In this document: piece after piece, positions 2,255-14,138 of the stretch
How positions within the stretch are numbered: the stretch's first letter is position 1
How the letters are laid out: the number at the start of each line of letters is the position of its first letter
Source of the DNA: an uncultured Erysipelotrichaceae bacterium
GTDB taxonomy: Bacteria > Bacillota_I > Bacilli_A > RFN20 > CAG-826
Assembly (NCBI GenBank): GCA_902794835.1
Contig: CADBIO010000009.1
Location: 1 to 32,339 of the forward strand
Direction: 5' to 3'
Length of the DNA stretch: 32,339 nucleotides
Notes under the pieces: model-generated
What the model was told of the DNA's origin: nothing
The model's input: only the letters and a program-made list of their open reading frames with translations
Databases searched by the model: none
Program-made: the position numbers and the translations under genes

Positions 2255-2623
2255 TTTCCATTTCCCTCCGGATGTAAGATTTGCGCCGACGATAAAGCCG
2301 TTGTATCGACCGTCACTGCGACGTGGTAGGTCTTCCCTCCATAATTATATTCATAAATTGGCCTGCCTGTCCCTTTTCCTTGATAGCCGACGATTTCCCC
2401 GTAGGCGACCGCGTTCAGGACGAAAGTTCCGATCATGGAGGCAGGGATTCCGCCAGAAACGAATTGACTGCCGTGCTCTTTGAGGATGTGCTTGAGACCT
2501 GCATTGAGACGACCAACCTCGACGTTTATCTGCCAAACCCAAAATTCGCGATGGCGGGGAACCTTTCCGTTCGTCTACACGACCGCCCGGACAACTATGC
2601 GTTTTTGTTTGTACTTAAAAGCG
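2251..2623 (-). pseudogene. Truncated toxin C-terminal domain, barnase/phage-nuclease-like
   Basis: On the minus strand an open frame of about 107 codons (TNGKVPRHREFWVW...GLKHILKEHG...YHVAVTVDTT) runs from an in-frame TAG at 2577-2575 down to the TGA at 2253-2251, with no credible start before an internal ATG at 2436. Upstream of the TAG the same frame continues with KQKRIVVRAVV, which reads as the same protein, so one nonsense change (Tyr to stop would fit) breaks it. The frame loses sense near 2625, where the WYL promoter begins. The KHILKEHG and GRPIYEYNYGGKTYHVAVTV segments resemble C-terminal nuclease domains of the barnase/EndoU/ColicinE5-like group found in phage proteins and polymorphic toxins. 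The family call is from memory and needs a profile search. The delivery part is absent, so this is a relic. Confidence 0.6.
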
Positions 2624-2663
2624 TGCACGCCTATTGATAATCTATTATGCGTAGAGATAAAAT
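2621..2663 (+). promoter_or_regulatory. Promoter of the WYL regulator with an upstream palindrome
   Basis: TTGATA (2634-2639) and TAAAAT (2658-2663) form a good sigma-A type promoter with an 18-nt spacer. The perfect palindrome GCGTGCACGC (2621-2630) ends four bases before the -35 box and could be an operator, for example for autoregulation by the WYL protein. Operator use is an inference. Confidence 0.6.
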
Positions 2664-2692
2664 TCTTACTAACAAAAAGGCGGAAAAACCTA

Positions 2693-3721
2693 ATGTTTGA
2701 AAACAAGAAGTCGTCCATCTTACTCATCCTCAGGACTTTGGAGGAATACTCCGATGAGGACCATTTCCTAACACAGCAGGACATCATCGATAAGGTGGAG
2801 GCCAACTATGGGATCACTCTGGAACGCAAAAGCGTATCGTATTCCATCTCCTTACTGCAGGAACTCGATTATGATATCGAGAAAGGTCCGCGTGGCGGAT
2901 ATGCCTTATTCTCTAGATTATTCGATCCCTCTGAGGTCCGTTTTCTAACCGACGCTCTATTCTCCTCTAGAGCCCTACCAGGAAAGCAGGCCGCGGACCT
3001 CTCGAAGAAGGCCCAATCGGTTCTAAGCAAGCACCAGAGGTCTTCCTATTCTTATATTTATAAATCACCTCAACTGAACAGGACCGAGTCCAAGGAGGTG
3101 TTCTTCGCGATCGACACGACGCATGAGGGCATCAAGCGGGGGAAGAGGATTTCCTTCCAATACAAAACATATGACGAGCATGGGGAGGTAACCCTTCGCA
3201 ACGATGGATACCGATACATCGTCTCGCCGTATTACCTTGTGAACAGCAATGGCTTCTACTACCTTATCTGCAATTACCGCGAGAAATACCGGCCGATACA
3301 AGTGTTTCGCGTAGATCTGATGACGAACCTTCGAATAGAGGAGGAGTGGCCGATAAAACCCCTATCGACAATTAAAGGCGGAGAGGAGTTTGATATCGCC
3401 GACTACATCAACGACCACGTCTACATGCTTGGCGGGGATGTGGTGGATGCGACCATTCGCGTCGACCAGGCATATGGAATCCAATACCTCAGAGATTGGT
3501 TCGGAAAGAAGGCCAGGATTTACGAAAAAGACGGTCTCTTGTTTGCAAAGATCAGATGTAACGAAGATTCGTTGTTCTTTTGGATACTTCAATATGGCGA
3601 TGAGTTCACGTTGGTTGAGCCGATAAGTTTGATTGAACGCCTGAAACAACATTTGCAAAGACAAAACAAGAAGTACGAGCGAAAACGATATGGAGACAAT
3701 TCAGGGAAAAGGAGGCGGTAA
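2693..3721 (+). CDS. WYL-domain transcriptional regulator
   Basis: A 342-residue protein. Residues 1-65 form an N-terminal winged-helix DNA-binding region (ILLILRTLEEYSDEDHFLTQ, then the helix with SVSYSISLLQELDYDI and GPRGGYAL). Residues about 145-225 form a WYL domain (YIVSPYYLVNSNGFYYLICNY, then VFRVDLMTNL). A WCX-type C-terminal domain with WFGKKARIYEKDGLL follows. The ATG at 2693 is preferred over earlier in-frame starts, which run through unrelated relic sequence; it has a modest AAGGCGG site and a promoter just upstream. WYL proteins bind nucleic-acid or nucleotide ligands and often control defence loci and DNA-damage responses. The next gene starts one base after this stop, so the two are co-transcribed. 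Confidence 0.88.
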   Translation: MFENKKSSILLILRTLEEYSDEDHFLTQQDIIDKVEANYGITLERKSVSYSISLLQELDYDIEKGPRGGYALFSRLFDPSEVRFLTDALFSSRALPGKQAADLSKKAQSVLSKHQRSSYSYIYKSPQLNRTESKEVFFAIDTTHEGIKRGKRISFQYKTYDEHGEVTLRNDGYRYIVSPYYLVNSNGFYYLICNYREKYRPIQVFRVDLMTNLRIEEEWPIKPLSTIKGGEEFDIADYINDHVYMLGGDVVDATIRVDQAYGIQYLRDWFGKKARIYEKDGLLFAKIRCNEDSLFFWILQYGDEFTLVEPISLIERLKQHLQRQNKKYERKRYGDNSGKRRR

Positions 3722-3722
3722 C

Positions 3723-4484
3723 ATGAGAAAAACTAAATTGTTGGACAACCTATTCTCGGAATGGGAAAAAGCACATCAAGACGAGTCGGAAGAGTCATGC
3801 AAGAAAACCATTAATGGGGATAGAATCAAAAAGCATTTCTTTGAGAGAGATGGCATCATAAGCGAAAATGACTTTGAAAAAGAAAAGACGAAGATTCTTT
3901 TTGTGATGGCAGAAGCGAATATTGATAAATATACGGAAGAGGGGTCGAACGGTAAAATAGATTATCGCGAAATCTATAAAAACTACTATAACGATCAAAC
4001 AGGCAAGGATCGGTGGAAGGGCAAAATGAAAGAAAGGCTATCTGCCCTATATGGCTACATGACTTCTCAGACTCACGTCACGCCTCATTTATTGGCTAAC
4101 AAATACGCGGTCATGGACTTAAACAAAAGGGGCGGAAAAGCAAAAATCGGTCGTGGTGCCCACATTGTCGAGTATGTTAGAGTGTATCGCTCTTTCTTAA
4201 GAAAGGAGCTTGAGATTATCAATCCAGATATCGTGGTTTGGGTTGGCACAAACATATATCGGTTAGGCATCCCGAAACTACTTGGTGCTAAAGAAGATAG
4301 AGATAATTTGTGTTTCGTAATCGAAGGGAGGTCCGTTCCAATCATCAGTATATGGCAGACTTCGTATTACCAGGCCCGCATCGAGCCTCTTTCTCCCGAA
4401 GAATGTGGAACCGAGAACAGGATTATCCGGAAGCTTTGCGCAAAGGCAAAAATAGAGATGGACAAATTAATCAGAAACAGCTAG
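3723..4484 (+). CDS. Uracil-DNA-glycosylase-fold-like protein of unknown function
   Basis: A 253-residue soluble protein. The start at ATG 3723 is chosen for its AGGAGG site inside the end of the WYL gene and 1-nt spacing to it. Segments in order are KILFVMAEANI (residues 57-67), YAVMDLNKRGG (128-138), INPDIVVWVG (166-175) and VPIISIWQTSYYQA (205-218). This pattern (strand ending in an acidic loop, a D/N-L strand, a PDIVVxxG strand, a final strand with an active-site-like loop) resembles the uracil-DNA glycosylase superfamily. The canonical catalytic motifs are not clearly present, so activity on uracil is not claimed. Its coupling to a WYL regulator suggests a nucleic-acid-related or defence role. 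A divergent hypothetical protein is the conservative alternative. Confidence 0.6.
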   Translation: MRKTKLLDNLFSEWEKAHQDESEESCKKTINGDRIKKHFFERDGIISENDFEKEKTKILFVMAEANIDKYTEEGSNGKIDYREIYKNYYNDQTGKDRWKGKMKERLSALYGYMTSQTHVTPHLLANKYAVMDLNKRGGKAKIGRGAHIVEYVRVYRSFLRKELEIINPDIVVWVGTNIYRLGIPKLLGAKEDRDNLCFVIEGRSVPIISIWQTSYYQARIEPLSPEECGTENRIIRKLCAKAKIEMDKLIRNS

Positions 4485-4551
4485 ACCAAAGCCATGTCCT
4501 CTTTTCGCCCCATTTCTTTAGGTATTCTTCCTTTAGAAAGGAGGTAAGTGA

Positions 4552-4794
4552 ATGGCAAGGATGACAAAGGCCGATTTCAAATTGCTCAAAGGGCAGACGG
4601 TGGCCTTCGCCGTGGTTACCTATAACGAGGACGCTAGGATCCGTATGGTGAACTATGGCGAAGACGCAAGATTTCAGAAGGTCCAATACGGAAACTCGAC
4701 GAACACCATCAAGGTCAAGATCGTGAACTACGGCGAAGACGTCAAACTCAAGGAAGTGGCTTACGGTGGTGACTTCAAAGTAATCACGAAATAA
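4552..4794 (+). CDS. 80-aa strand-repeat protein, 7(1) septoil-knot/DUF6150-like
   Basis: A short protein made almost only of repeated strand units: TYNEDARIRMVN, YGEDARFQKVQ, VNYGEDVKLKEV, YGGDFKVITK. The V-x-Y-x-E-D-A/V register recurs about every 12 residues. This layout is what I remember of the small DUF6150 family, later described as predicted 7(1) septoil-knot proteins; the match is by pattern only. ATG 4552 follows a strong AAAGGAGG site; ATG 4561 is a second possibility. It lies 67 nt after the glycosylase-like gene on the same strand and is followed by a terminator, so it ends that transcript. No function is known to me. Confidence 0.65.
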   Translation: MARMTKADFKLLKGQTVAFAVVTYNEDARIRMVNYGEDARFQKVQYGNSTNTIKVKIVNYGEDVKLKEVAYGGDFKVITK

Positions 4795-4804
4795 GCAAAC
4801 TTGG

Positions 4805-4834
4805 AGATGCTCGAAAAAACGGGCATCTTTTTCT
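4805..4834 (+). terminator. Rho-independent terminator after the septoil-knot-like gene
   Basis: AGATGC / GCATCT with an inner CG/CG pair around an A6 loop, followed by TTTTTCTTT. It splits the island's plus-strand genes into two transcription units. Confidence 0.8.
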
Positions 4835-4896
4835 TTGTATGTACCAAAAAACGTGCATTAAAGCTCCTACCATTTAGGCATAAGGAGGCTGATAGT

Positions 4897-6219
4897 ATGG
4901 ATAATGAAATCAGCAAATTTCTCCCAAATGTCTATGGTTTGTGGAGAATCAAGGAAGAACTCAAGGTGATCCTTGGGTGGTATAAGGACCCGGAATCGAT
5001 GGGCAAGCGGAAACACCTGCTGCCTAAGGGAATACTCTTCTATGGTGACCCCGGATGTGGCAAGACGATGCTTATGCGGGAATATTCCAAGGAATTCGCC
5101 TGTCCAGTGTTCTTAATTGAAGGCAACGCGGAAGATGTGCAGACGGAGATCATCGAGACCTACGAGAAGGCATCCAAGGAACCGCTCTCCATCGTCATTA
5201 TCGACGAATTGGACCGCCTGATTGACAAAGACGGCAAACTCATCCGTATCTTACAAGCCAAACTCGATGGCTTTAAGCAGAATGTCGGGACGCTCACTTT
5301 GGCGACCGCGAACGAAAAAGGCAAAATCCCGGAGCCCTTAAAACGCGAAGGGAGATTCGACAGGCGGTTTGACATCTATCTTCAAGGGAAAGACGAAGTC
5401 CGTGAGGCCGTGGAAGGCTTTTTGGCGTCCGCCGGGCTTTCCATCGACGAGGAGGGGCTCGAAGAGTTGGTCGATGATTTTAGATTCGATACCGCTAGCC
5501 ACATCAGGGCGGCGATCAATTCTGCCGCGCTCCGCTATGGGGACGATTGTACCGCCGAACAGATCCTGGACGTGTCGCATTTCATCGCCTGGGGTAGACT
5601 TCCCCGCAAAGAGGAGGTAGAGATTGACCGCCGTGTTGCCATACACGAAGCGGGCCATGCGGCCTATCTTCATTTCTTCTCAAAGACCATGGACTGTGGA
5701 CGCATATATTTTTCTGCCTCCGGGGGTTTCACGACATTGATGCCCCTTAAGAAAACATCGAGCATTCTCTCCGTCACCGAGAACATCCGCTGTTCGCTGG
5801 CCGGGCTTGTCGCTGAGGAGATTTGCTTCGGGTACCATGGATATGGATCGCATACGGATTTGAATCAAGCCCACAGCCTAGCTTACCACCTCGTGAATAC
5901 GCAGGCCCTTAATGGCGTAGAGAATCACTGCAACTCCTACGAGGAACTCGAGCCATCCAAGAATATGTCGCAAGCGAAAATGAGGGGGATGGAAAGGGCG
6001 TCACGCCGTTTTGTGGCGAAACAATATAGAATCGTGGAGAAAGCGATGAAGGAGAAAAGGAGACAAATCGAAGCGTTGTCGGATTTCCTGATGGAGCACG
6101 GGAAGGCTTCCAAAAAAGAGATTCAGGCGATATTATCGGCGAATTCATGGTGCTGTAAGAAAAAGGGCGAAGAGAGGGAATGGCATGGAACGCTTGGCAA
6201 AAGAAGCGCAATGGTCTGA
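4897..6219 (+). CDS. Soluble AAA+ ATPase fused to an M41 (FtsH-type) zinc protease
   Basis: A 440-residue protein. Start ATG 4897 is preceded by TAAGGAGG at 8-nt spacing; the earlier in-frame ATG at 4801 overlaps the terminator and is rejected. The AAA+ module has Walker A GDPGCGKT (50-57), Walker B IVIIDELD (99-106) and a second region of homology REGRFDRRFD (150-159) with arginine fingers. The M41 module has the zinc motif HEAGH (250-254) and a third-ligand candidate in GSHTDLNQA (D321). FtsH is normally about 600-650 residues with two N-terminal membrane helices; here there are none, so the enzyme should be cytosolic. The usual aromatic-hydrophobic-Gly pore loop is not obvious (VFLIEGN is at that place). 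The C-terminus is rich in Lys/Arg/Glu. The role is probably ATP-driven degradation of a partner encoded by the island or by a phage; the substrate is unknown. Confidence 0.85.
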   Translation: MDNEISKFLPNVYGLWRIKEELKVILGWYKDPESMGKRKHLLPKGILFYGDPGCGKTMLMREYSKEFACPVFLIEGNAEDVQTEIIETYEKASKEPLSIVIIDELDRLIDKDGKLIRILQAKLDGFKQNVGTLTLATANEKGKIPEPLKREGRFDRRFDIYLQGKDEVREAVEGFLASAGLSIDEEGLEELVDDFRFDTASHIRAAINSAALRYGDDCTAEQILDVSHFIAWGRLPRKEEVEIDRRVAIHEAGHAAYLHFFSKTMDCGRIYFSASGGFTTLMPLKKTSSILSVTENIRCSLAGLVAEEICFGYHGYGSHTDLNQAHSLAYHLVNTQALNGVENHCNSYEELEPSKNMSQAKMRGMERASRRFVAKQYRIVEKAMKEKRRQIEALSDFLMEHGKASKKEIQAILSANSWCCKKKGEEREWHGTLGKRSAMV

Positions 6220-6242
6220 CGCTGCTGATGGTAGTCTTTAGT

Positions 6243-10662: not shown

Positions 10663-12480
10663 ATGGACGAAACTGTTTCGCCACAAAAGAGCCCGTTTCA
10701 GAAAAAACTAAAACGTGGGTTGAACTCGACGCTGACCTTTTTCGGCATGCCCGCTCATTCCATTCTTGTTCTTTTCGGTATCGTTCTTCTTTTGCTCAAC
10801 GTCTTTCCAATCGTCTCATTGCTGATTAAGGCGTTCACAACTTATAAAATCGTCGGCACTGGTGAATTCACCTTCGACAACTTTGATAAGGTCTTTAACT
10901 GGACCAACACAACCTCGGTTGGCTATTTCTGGAAACCATTTGGAAACTCCTTGCTGGTTTCGGTCCTGTCCTGCGTTTTTGCTATTTTGATCGGTGGTGG
11001 TACCGCCTTCTTAATGGCAAGAACCAACATGAAACTCAAAAAATTCATTGGGGCCGTGTTCATTTTCCCTTACATCATGCCTCAGTGGACCCTCGCTTTG
11101 TTCTGGAGAAACATGTTCATCTCGACGGCTTGCAATGCTGGTCACGTGGGTGAATTCCAGGCTCTTACGGGCATTGCAATGCCGCAATGGTTCGTCTTTG
11201 GTGCTTTCCCAATTGCTTTGATGCTCGGTTTGCACTATGCGCCATTCGCCTACATCCTTTTCGGTGGCGTCCTTCAGAATATGGACTCCAACCTTGAAGA
11301 AGCGGCTTCGATTCTTGGCATCCCAAAATGGAAATCCTTCTTCCGCGTTACAGTCCCGATTTTGACACCTGCTTTGTTTTCTACCATTCTTTTGGTCTTT
11401 AGCTCGGCGATGTCTTCTTATTCTATTGCTGTTACTTTGGGTAACCCGGTGAACTATTACGTCCTGGCTACCCGTATGCAATATATGCTTTCCAGTGGCT
11501 CAGCCAAAGAAAGCCAAGGCTACGTTATGGCGATTGTCTTGATCTTGATCGGTTTGGTCATGCTGCTCATGAACCAAGCCCAGACGAGATCCCGTAAACA
11601 ATTCACGACCGTCACTGGAAAATCTGGACAGGTTTCCAAAAACAACCTGGGCAAAGCCGGTTCTTGGATCGTTGGCATCGTCCTTGCGATTTTTGTCGCT
11701 TTCTTCGCGATTGGCCCAATGGTTTCCTTCTTCTTGGAATCCTTATTGCCGAATGTCGGCGACTACTCTTCTGGCTTCTCCTTCAAAGCCTGGATTTCGA
11801 CCGAACCGATTTCCACCAACGACTTTGTCGGATTCTTCCATGAGAACAAGATTTGGAAAGCCCTCGGAGGATCAGTCAAACTATCCGTCTTCTGCGCCCT
11901 CTTTGCCGGCCTTAGCGGTTTCTTGATCGGCTATGCCGTCAGCAAATGCAGAAAGAGCAGAGGCGCGAACTTCGTCAATGGTTTGGCCTTCTTCCCTTAC
12001 TTAATGCCTTCTATCGCATTATCTGTTACCTTCTACTTGATGGGTCTCAACCTCAAGATGGCTTCGATGTGGATCGTTGTTGCCATCATCGCAGGCACTA
12101 TCAAATATATCCCAATGGCATCCCGTTCTTCGTTGAATGCCATGATGCAGTTATCAGGCGAAATCGAAGAAGCCGGCATCATCCAAGGCGTCCCTTGGTG
12201 GAAACGTATGACTCACATCGTCTTCCCAATCCAAAAGGCCGCCATCATCTCTGGCTTCTTGCTTCCATTCATCTCCTGTATGCGTGAATACGATTTGTTC
12301 ATCTTCATCGGCGGAGACCAGATGACCTTGACCAAATTTATGTTCCAATTGGAAGCCGACGGCGTTCCTGCTCTTGAAAACGCAGCGAACTTCGCCTTAA
12401 TTCTCATCATCTTGTTAGTTAACTGGCTGACCAATCTCCTCACTGGCGCCAGCATCGATAAAGGAGTAGGAGGCAAATAA
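10663..12480 (+). CDS. Fused double ABC importer permease
   Basis: A 605-residue membrane protein with about 12 helices in two homologous halves (about 30-300 and 330-600), as in iron(III)-type FbpB/AfuB permeases, so one chain replaces a permease pair. Each half carries an EAA coupling loop that contacts the ATPase: EEAASILGIPKWKSFFRVTVPIL (near 210) and the region IEEAGIIQGVPWWKRMTHIVFP (near 505). ATG 10663 follows AAAGGAGA. The ATPase gene starts 2 nt after its stop, so the two are translated together. It moves the solute delivered by the upstream lipoprotein across the cytoplasmic membrane. Confidence 0.92.
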   Translation: MDETVSPQKSPFQKKLKRGLNSTLTFFGMPAHSILVLFGIVLLLLNVFPIVSLLIKAFTTYKIVGTGEFTFDNFDKVFNWTNTTSVGYFWKPFGNSLLVSVLSCVFAILIGGGTAFLMARTNMKLKKFIGAVFIFPYIMPQWTLALFWRNMFISTACNAGHVGEFQALTGIAMPQWFVFGAFPIALMLGLHYAPFAYILFGGVLQNMDSNLEEAASILGIPKWKSFFRVTVPILTPALFSTILLVFSSAMSSYSIAVTLGNPVNYYVLATRMQYMLSSGSAKESQGYVMAIVLILIGLVMLLMNQAQTRSRKQFTTVTGKSGQVSKNNLGKAGSWIVGIVLAIFVAFFAIGPMVSFFLESLLPNVGDYSSGFSFKAWISTEPISTNDFVGFFHENKIWKALGGSVKLSVFCALFAGLSGFLIGYAVSKCRKSRGANFVNGLAFFPYLMPSIALSVTFYLMGLNLKMASMWIVVAIIAGTIKYIPMASRSSLNAMMQLSGEIEEAGIIQGVPWWKRMTHIVFPIQKAAIISGFLLPFISCMREYDLFIFIGGDQMTLTKFMFQLEADGVPALENAANFALILIILLVNWLTNLLTGASIDKGVGGK

Positions 12481-12482
12481 TT

Positions 12483-14138
12483 ATGCCAAAGATTGAATTA
12501 ATTAATGTTACGAAACGTTGGGGTGGCTTCTATGGCGCTGATCACCTCAATATGGTGATTGAAGACAATGGCTTTGTCACCCTTCTTGGCCCATCTGGCT
12601 GTGGTAAAACCACAACCCTCCGTATGATTGCCGGTTTGGAGACACCAACCGAAGGGAAAATTCTCTTTGATGGCAAGCCAATCTTTGATTCGGAAGAAGG
12701 AATCAACCTTCCTGCTTCCAAGCGTCACGTTGGATTCTTGTTCCAGAACTACGCTCTCTGGCCGCATATGACGGTTTATAAAAACATCACCTTCGGTTTG
12801 CAAGAATTAAAACAAGAACTTCCGGTCATTTCCAGCGATTGGAAGAAATATCACCGCCTTGCGGAAGTGGTTACCAATATCCGCGATATCAAGAAGTTCA
12901 TTGCCTATTCGTTAGACAAAAATCAAAAAGTCGTGGAAGAGAAAGCTTTGCTCTTCTTGATTGACGGTTTCGAGATTTCTATGAGCGCGGCCAAAGAAAT
13001 CTTCAAGCTTGGCTTTGATCAGAAGTCGGACGCAGAATGCGAGGCAATCGCGGAGCAAAAGAAAGCCGAATTCACCGTCAAAGCGGATCAAGCGAAAGCC
13101 AACGTCGAAAAGAAAGGCTATGAGCTTAACGAAAATGGTGAATACGTCAAAGATGGCGAAGTCGTAAGAAAAGAACGCAAACTTGACAAAGAAGAAATCG
13201 ATCTTCGTGTCCGTCGCGTCTCCCGCATCGTCCACATCGGCGAATTCATGGGCCGTTACCCAGCCGAACTCTCCGGTGGTCAGCAACAGCGTGTCGCTAT
13301 CGCCCGTACTTTGGCACCAGAGCCAAAAGTAATCTTCATGGATGAGCCTCTTTCCAACCTCGATGCGAAACTCCGTTTGGAGATGCGTTCTGAGTTAAAG
13401 AGACTTCATAAAGACACCGGCTCCACCTTCGTCTACGTCACCCACGACCAACAAGAAGCGATGACCTTGGCGACCAAGATCTGCTTGATCAATAACGGCG
13501 TCATTCAGCAATATGAGGCTCCATTGGATGTTTATAAGAAGCCAAATAACCTCTTTGTTGCCGACTTCATCGGCTCCCCAAGCATCAACTTCGTGGAAGG
13601 CTTAGCCTCTCAAAAGGGCAAGAATATCGAGCTTGAAGTCTTCGATGGCTGCAAGGCCGAATTCATCCCTAATGAGCCGCTCAACTTGGAAGAGTATTGC
13701 AAACAGCGCGATGCCAGAATGGAAGAAGCCGCTGCCTTAAAAGCGGAAGAACTCTCCCAGAAAGGCGCCGTGGAAAAAGAAAACGCCGACCGTGCCTTCA
13801 ACTACGCCATCGCCAAAGTTACTGGCAATGTGATGGCAGAAGAAGAGCATGACGTCCCTGAGAATACCTACCTTCTCGGCATCCGTCCTGAATTCATCAA
13901 GATCGATACGAAAGAAGGGGATATCGACGCGGAAATCTATTCTGCTCTTCCTACCGGCATGGAAACGACCGTCAAGCTCCGCATCGGTGATTATATCCTC
14001 ACGGGTGTGATCTTCGGTGGCGTTGACTACGTAATGGGAGAAAAGGTCAAGTTGTCTTTCGGAAGCACGGGAATCCTTCTCTTTGATCGCAAGAGTGGGG
14101 AACTTGTCTCCGCAGGTCAACTGAAACTCAAAAAGTAA
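12483..14138 (+). CDS. ABC importer ATPase with a long insert
   Basis: A 551-residue energising subunit, against about 360-370 in MalK/UgpC/PotA relatives. Walker A is GPSGCGKT (36-43), the Q-loop Gln is in FLFQNYALWPHMTVY (Q88), the signature LSGGQ is at 263-267, Walker B is VIFMDEP (283-289), and the H-loop is VYVTHD (about 318-323). The Q-loop to signature distance is about 175 residues instead of about 50: roughly 110-240 is an extra Lys/Glu-rich helical insert in the helical subdomain. A second acidic/Ala-rich insert (about 410-445, with REDARMEEAAALKAEELSQ-like sequence) interrupts the C-terminal TOBE/MOP regulatory region, which resumes with YLLGIRPEF. A terminator follows directly, so this ends the operon. 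Confidence 0.92.
   Translation: MPKIELINVTKRWGGFYGADHLNMVIEDNGFVTLLGPSGCGKTTTLRMIAGLETPTEGKILFDGKPIFDSEEGINLPASKRHVGFLFQNYALWPHMTVYKNITFGLQELKQELPVISSDWKKYHRLAEVVTNIRDIKKFIAYSLDKNQKVVEEKALLFLIDGFEISMSAAKEIFKLGFDQKSDAECEAIAEQKKAEFTVKADQAKANVEKKGYELNENGEYVKDGEVVRKERKLDKEEIDLRVRRVSRIVHIGEFMGRYPAELSGGQQQRVAIARTLAPEPKVIFMDEPLSNLDAKLRLEMRSELKRLHKDTGSTFVYVTHDQQEAMTLATKICLINNGVIQQYEAPLDVYKKPNNLFVADFIGSPSINFVEGLASQKGKNIELEVFDGCKAEFIPNEPLNLEEYCKQRDARMEEAAALKAEELSQKGAVEKENADRAFNYAIAKVTGNVMAEEEHDVPENTYLLGIRPEFIKIDTKEGDIDAEIYSALPTGMETTVKLRIGDYILTGVIFGGVDYVMGEKVKLSFGSTGILLFDRKSGELVSAGQLKLKK

Follow-up and report, generated by a model that had tools for sequence, protein, structure and literature searches.

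The 32,339-nucleotide stretch of DNA analysed here (the window), from an uncultured Erysipelotrichaceae bacterium, encodes a soluble protease of 440 residues in which an AAA+ ATPase module is followed by an M41 peptidase. Both catalytic centers retain their active-site residues, and the membrane segment and pore loop of FtsH are missing. The gene is the last of a same-strand series, in which a WYL-WCX regulator is followed by a protein with the uracil-DNA glycosylase (UDG) fold, an 80-residue protein and a terminator-like hairpin; in a related locus the UDG-fold gene is exchanged for another one. These observations suggest, with a probability of roughly 0.55, that the AAA+-M41 protein serves a swappable antiphage cassette under WYL control, in an accessory and probably regulatory capacity, and that it clips a specific partner non-processively.

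A membrane anchor and a pore loop that grips the substrate are generally regarded as requirements of FtsH-type proteases. Here a whole lineage has kept both catalytic centers and dropped the anchor and the loop, and the role of an AAA+ ring that does not thread its substrate thus becomes testable in a soluble protein of 440 residues. If the cassette is antiphage, an AAA+ protease would be added to the short list of proteolytic switches known in bacterial immunity, and one control module would be reused with different DNA-attacking cargo.

The protease and its active sites

The preliminary description placed the gene correctly, from its ATG to its stop codon (Table 1). The ATG is preceded by an AAGGAGG ribosome site. 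A longer frame of 472 residues, which begins at TTG 4801, is unlikely from its sequence context to represent the true start, because it crosses the terminator-like hairpin and because the spacer of 109-110 nt, the hairpin and the ATG are kept in three related loci.

The protein matches the Pfam families AAA (residues 46-160, 73.3 bits, cut-off 21.2) and Peptidase_M41 (PF01434; residues 245-412, 59.8 bits, cut-off 29.9). As both scores exceed their cut-offs, the AAA+-M41 assignment is not due to chance. All the core FtsH motifs that had been listed at the outset are present: GDPGCGKT (K56), IVIIDELD (D103 and E104), REGRFDRRFD (R150 and R153), HEAGH and the distal Asp, to which N139 of the ATPase can be added. 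In an alignment of 32 soluble sequences, K56, E104, N139, R150, R153, H250, E251, H254 and D321 are invariant, and the first acid of Walker B varies between D and E. By homology, D321 would be the third zinc ligand, and the protein is predicted to be catalytically competent.

The AlphaFold2 monomer model, computed from the 32 sequences, has a mean pLDDT of 85.9 and a pTM of 0.79. Its fold is FtsH-like over nearly the whole chain (FtsH 3kds: Z 29.1, rmsd 4.8, 399 residues), and YME1 and AFG3L2 also align with it over nearly the full length.

Table 1. Positions of the cassette features in the window
Feature	Position	Strand	Evidence
Sigma-70-type promoter-like site (TTGATA, 18 nt, TAAAAT)	2634..2663	+	Consensus scan, 10/12 matches; just upstream of WYL gene
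WYL-WCX transcriptional regulator, 342 aa	2693..3721	+	Start at 2693 by alignment and by model match
UDG-fold protein, 253 aa (264 aa from ATG 3690), exchangeable cargo here	3723..4484	+	Structure model
80-aa beta-repeat-like protein	4552..4794	+	Linkage to AAA+-M41 loci; weak phrog_6462 match
Terminator-like hairpin, then T-run	4803..4830	+	Between 80-aa gene and protease gene
Soluble AAA+-M41 protease, 440 aa	4897..6219	+	ATG 4897, stop 6219; domain, alignment and structure-model evidence
Shortened loop, residues 75-80, at position of FtsH pore loop 1	5119..5136	+	Alignment, spacing, model secondary structure
HEAGH zinc motif, residues 250-254	5644..5658	+	Sequence, alignment
Distal Asp D321	5857..5859	+	Invariant 32/32 in alignment

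Missing membrane segment and shortened pore loop

The protein has no membrane helix, as had been claimed initially. The highest hydrophobicity of any 19-residue segment preceding the AAA domain is 0.84, even in the 472-residue frame, compared with at least 1.89 by the same measure in 49 membrane FtsHs. The preliminary description had named an upstream exon-like frameshift carrying transmembrane helices as a finding that would overturn this claim. No such exon or frame is present between the 80-residue gene and the protease start, where there is no room for one, and the short spacer between that gene and the ATG (102 nt) is shared by the window and the loci L034, L113 and L114.

The aromatic pore-loop motif had been called unrecognizable, and the loop is in fact shortened. 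The alignment shows a deletion at the FVGVG segment of FtsH, and in the model a strand (residues 71-74) leads through a six-residue turn into a helix (residues 81-93). The distance between Walker A and Walker B is 45 residues in the window protein and 40-47 in all 35 soluble proteins, as opposed to 51-52 in all 49 membrane FtsHs and 49-52 in the eight measurable proteins of a more divergent group, clade D; the pore-loop measurement covers 92 of the 95 rows. An FVGxG-like motif is found in none of the 35 soluble sequences and in 48 of the 49 membrane FtsHs. An aromatic residue is retained within the shortened loop in two of the 35 soluble proteins, which counts against the reading of the protein proposed below. 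The stretch from Walker B to sensor 1, which we take to be the location of the second pore loop of FtsH, measures 33-37 residues in the soluble proteins (31 of 35 measurable) versus 39-46 in FtsH.

A review of FtsH describes the phenylalanine of the FVG motif as attaching to the substrate and moving into the pore together with it (PMC9020784). As this loop is lost, a different mode of substrate handling is predicted for the soluble protein.

The sole membrane FtsH of the 49 that lacks FVGxG is a full-length protein encoded at L081 1438-3402, in G001, a partial genome of 0.4 Mb.

Relation of the soluble proteins to FtsH

Judged by their sequences, the soluble AAA+-M41 proteins are a lineage distinct from FtsH. 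In a quick tree of 93 rows, which is midpoint-rooted, so that its root is not inferred, and has several long branches, the 34 soluble rows lie on one side of a branch with an SH-aLRT support of 98, the 49 FtsH rows are grouped (support 95), and ten clade D rows lie between. L168, which has an internal stop, and L147, a near-copy, were left out of the 95 rows. Clustering with ordinary FtsH, which had been put forward as evidence that would refute a separate machine, is thus absent, and the suggestion of an AAA+-M41 machine that works in the cytosol and handles its substrates differently, as opposed to an FtsH minus its N-terminus, is supported. Against the FtsH model TIGR01241 (NCBIfam) the protein scores 104.6 bits, below the cut-off of 600, and is aligned from model position 162. 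The protein is not filed as FtsH because of this score, the missing membrane segment and pore loop, and its position outside FtsH in the tree. An ordinary FtsH of 729 residues is encoded on another contig of the same genome.

Of the 279 genomes of the order that were scanned, 28 have the soluble family, at 34 places with at least 298 bits each, and full-length FtsHs (frames longer than 600 residues) reach at most 256 bits; the places were counted by hand, and a small number of membrane-free frames of clade D have scores similar to those of FtsH. The first soluble relatives came from a single-protein scan of 96 genomes of the family. In a class sample of 395 genomes, the family occurs in two genomes outside the order (G408 and G499), and in a phylum sample of 245 genomes the three that match are all from the window's own family. 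The protein had been described as rare, which holds outside the order and is not supported in the sense of a one-off. Two soluble genes lie about 8 kb apart in L104 (5279-6508 and 14560-15939), and two are also found in each of G026, G052, G109, G111 and G241.

Clade D (L045, L046, L047, L052 and L121-L123) consists of more divergent membrane-free AAA+-M41 proteins with a near-normal loop length and no FVGxG. In L045 the gene is followed by a MatE-like transporter, relatives of which are present in L046 and L047.

AAA+-M41 proteins of phages and plasmids were considered as a source of the family and rejected. The ten records examined, chosen by hand (four of 20 phage rows and six of 20 plasmid rows), are frames of 576-744 residues with hydrophobic N-termini and are of the ordinary FtsH type. 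A scan of viral contigs with the family alignment gives at least 80 loci, and none of the matches listed extends beyond query residue 252, so that they cover little more than the AAA part. The same contigs scanned with the single 440-residue protein give one weak locus.

The genes upstream of the protease

The promoter-like site ahead of the WYL gene is a prediction only, nine such sites being found versus 5.6 expected in shuffles. The regulator matches the Pfam families WYL (34.1 bits, cut-off 21.8) and WCX (30.9 bits, cut-off 23.9), and the Pfam search reports no DNA-binding domain in it. The longer TTG frame of this gene, which begins at 2480, is not conserved. Upstream of the promoter-like site, positions 1700-2490 of the window have no match in the near-copy locus L033, and both sides of this small replaced segment are 97-99% identical.

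The neighbor first described as glycosylase-like is confirmed by its structure model to have a UDG fold, and its glycosylase activity is putative. The AlphaFold2 model (pLDDT 78, pTM 0.85) gives a list of 50 VIA rows, all of them UDG-superfamily entries (best Z 10.2), and the best Foldseek match has an E-value of 5.2e-4. The Pfam search assigns the 253-residue protein to no family, UDG included, and a distant relative scores 15.5 bits against the UDG family with a cut-off of 24.3. The plasmid and phage searches reveal no homologues, and a sequence search of the PDB yields nothing at E-values up to 5.

The 80-residue protein, proposed earlier as a partner, is indeed a linked part of these loci. 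It occurs in seven of the 279 genomes of the order, one of them being the near-copy G251, and always beside an AAA+-M41 gene. It has no Pfam family above the cut-off and no significant phage or plasmid match; it is a candidate relative of a small beta-repeat family. The hairpin that follows it is present with a changed sequence in L034, L113 and L114.

Linkage to WYL genes and exchange of the cargo

A WYL gene is found within 4 kb of 17 of the 36 soluble AAA+-M41 genes, with gaps from 22 bp to 2.3 kb and on the same strand in 12 of the 17; the window and its near-copy L033, which may be one species, are both counted here. The detection profile was made of 24 WYL proteins, many of them from these loci, so it finds such proteins and does not create their proximity. 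No WYL gene lies within 4 kb at the other 19 soluble loci, some of which are near contig ends, or at any of the 12 clade D genes. On the tree of the 34 soluble rows the WYL label, assigned by hand, changes seven times.

The window and L034 match at the DNA level from 2629 to 3612 (83%) and from 4495 to 6230 (81%), with nothing between. The exchanged position is occupied by the UDG-fold gene in the window and by a GmrSD enzyme in L034, the N-terminal domain of which (PF03235) scores 84.1 bits (cut-off 33.2), with the C-terminal domain below its cut-off (20.3 versus 23). L113 has a relative of this enzyme, detected by BLAST. In the domain scans, which covered chosen neighbors, L109 has a PD-(D/E)XK protein (24.2 bits, cut-off 22.3), which lies across the WYL gene from the exchanged position, L111 has a protein with a below-cut-off PD-(D/E)XK match beside WYL, and L115 and L118 share a 447-residue protein without a Pfam family (L115 was the one scanned). 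Other soluble members adjoin type I restriction-modification genes (L038), PbeA/PbeC (L192) or a type IV enzyme (L103).

The WYL and UDG-fold pair is also found without the protease in L142 and, with WYL reduced to a remnant, in L140. In L142 (7091-8845), WYL is in two frames, owing to disruption or a sequencing error, and is followed by the UDG-fold relative and a DUF2971 gene; type I restriction-like genes lie alongside, with no AAA+-M41 gene. In L117, a MafB19-like deaminase gene (2620-3090) is next to the WYL and AAA+-M41 pair. The members of one subclade (L040 7270-8906, L041 8503-8955, L100 5935-6783, L101 4115-7290) have neighbors not of the WYL type, namely HAD_SAK_2 (RNA-repair type) and ADP-ribosylglycohydrolase, assigned by Pfam in L040, L041 and L100 and by BLAST cluster in L101. 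ADP-ribosyl glycohydrolases adjoin the defence protein Brig1 as well, in the available text of its description (PMC11078745).

Contig C117 of G251, which is L033, shares 98.8% identity with the window as far as the inside of trpS, and the TrpS encoded elsewhere in that genome is 82% identical. For this reason L033 may belong to the window's species and have been misbinned; it is counted and not treated as independent. A search for an empty insertion site in three genomes of the same genus with a close TrpS did not reveal one: the regions compared have no FtsX-type neighbor, and one of these regions ends 0.3 kb before trpS on the upstream side.

Possible role of the protease and alternatives

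The functional reading of the protease follows from the WYL regulator and the exchange of the cargo, neither of which figured in the preliminary description. GmrSD enzymes attack modified phage DNA. The same is reported of the antiphage glycosylase Brig1, a member of the UDG superfamily (PMC11078745), and for these reasons the cargo proteins are read as antiphage effectors. Upon ATP binding, the protease would assemble into an FtsH-like hexamer in the cytosol. As the loop with which FtsH pulls its chain is gone, the hexamer would not thread and shred its substrates processively and might instead clip one particular partner that contains a flexible segment. Another protein of the cassette would be the most probable partner, either the WYL regulator, whose cleavage would release expression, or the effector or the 80-residue protein, whose cleavage would set toxicity. 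The degradation of the repressor CapH by CapP (PMC12255303) is an earlier example of a defence regulator controlled by a protease, and by analogy the AAA+-M41 protein could be the protease arm of the control of the cassette.

Several findings weigh against a tight unit, among them the 19 of 36 loci without WYL and the subclade with HAD_SAK_2 and ADP-ribosylglycohydrolase-type neighbors. The protease is not obligatory, because WYL and UDG-fold pairs occur without it, and it may be expressed apart, since the conserved terminator divides it from the cargo. A new system is one possible reading of the cassette. The fuller proposal, in which a new type of antiphage system combines WYL control, interchangeable nucleic-acid-attacking cargo (UDG-fold, GmrSD, PD-(D/E)XK), the dedicated 80-residue protein and the cytosolic protease as an ATP-gated, site-specific proteolytic switch that works without pore-loop threading, is possible and should be regarded as tentative.

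The protease might also serve quality control, as a second soluble FtsH-type degrader of general substrates that is merely located in variable islands. Both of its modules, AAA+ and M41, seem intact and resemble those of FtsH, the WYL gene is often not nearby, and other members adjoin genes without a clear defence role. However, the pore loop is lost in all 35 members, which argues against general unfolding, and the patchy spread and the linkage to the 80-residue, WYL and restriction genes point to a dedicated role; we consider quality control rather unlikely. It is likewise unlikely that the genes for the protease, the WYL regulator and the nucleases are unconnected and have merely gathered at the same hot spot in defence islands. 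The separate occurrence of the WYL and UDG-fold genes and the position of the terminator would agree with such hitch-hiking, but the short WYL gaps in 17 loci, the constant association of the 80-residue gene with AAA+-M41 loci and the retention of both flanks where the cargo alone changes do not.

The missing pore loop and a weak similarity of the AAA part to clamp loaders and IetA would also fit a non-proteolytic switch, in which the ring, in the manner of a clamp loader, acts on DNA or on a partner and the M41 domain is dormant or clips itself. This is improbable given that HExxH and the distal Asp are invariant in 32 of 32 sequences, as dormant domains are expected to lose them. Finally, AAA and M41 are arranged and folded as expected of an ordinary FtsH whose N-terminus was lost by deletion, frameshift or assembly error. 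Such an origin is hardly credible: the tree and the relatives refute a truncated FtsH, the protein belonging to a separate clade with membrane-free relatives throughout, and the same start and leader are found in four loci; the genome has its ordinary FtsH elsewhere, and the score against the FtsH model is far below the cut-off. The regulatory protease of a cassette is the preferred reading.

Comparison with known systems

The protease shares with FtsH, AFG3L2 and YME1 the order of AAA+ and M41, the fold, the Walker motifs, the arginine fingers, and HExxH with the distal Asp; unlike them, it has no membrane segment and no FVG loop, its post-Walker B stretch is shorter, and it belongs to a separate clade. 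To our knowledge, the CapP and PprI peptidases lack an AAA+ motor. The pairing of a regulator gene with a metalloprotease gene recalls CapH-CapP and DdrO-PprI, in which the repressor is cleaved by a cognate metallopeptidase (PMC12255303; PMC10904395), but the regulator here is of the WYL type, and its cleavage is a proposal.

CapW and BrxR are WYL proteins that act as repressors of defence operons, and the regulator in the window resembles them in its WYL and WCX domains and in adjoining defence genes (PMC9122588, PMC9122601). A partner metalloprotease is unmentioned there: the words "FtsH", "peptidase" and "metallo" do not occur in the main text of the BrxR paper (PMC9122601), as available, nor "metallo" in that of the CapW paper (PMC9122588). 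The GmrSD cargo of L034 is comparable to the type IV enzyme BrxU, a GmrSD protein in a WYL-regulated (BrxR) island, for which the same available text mentions no AAA+-M41 protease (PMC9122601).

Compared at the level of structure, Brig1 and the UDG-fold cargo are alike in fold and in their defence setting. Sulfolobus tokodaii UDG is the best fold match of both, with a Dali Z of 9.2 for Brig1 in the available text (PMC11078745) and a Z of 10.2 for the cargo. Where two distant cargo relatives have an HP motif, the window protein has QT, and base excision by it is putative.

A search of the open-access literature found no paper on a WYL and AAA+-M41 module or on a soluble M41 family without a pore loop. 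In the MoxR-vWA conflict systems, too, the locus includes an AAA+ ATPase of the FtsH type; unlike the protein described here, those FtsH-type proteins have two AAA+ domains, one of them inactive, and "M41" is absent from the main text in its available form (PMC7159879).

Downstream of the cassette, positions 10663-14138 of the window encode a spermidine/putrescine-like ABC transporter with a fused double permease of 605 residues and an ATPase of 551 residues. This ATPase is matched by family models in separate stretches, which suggests an insertion.
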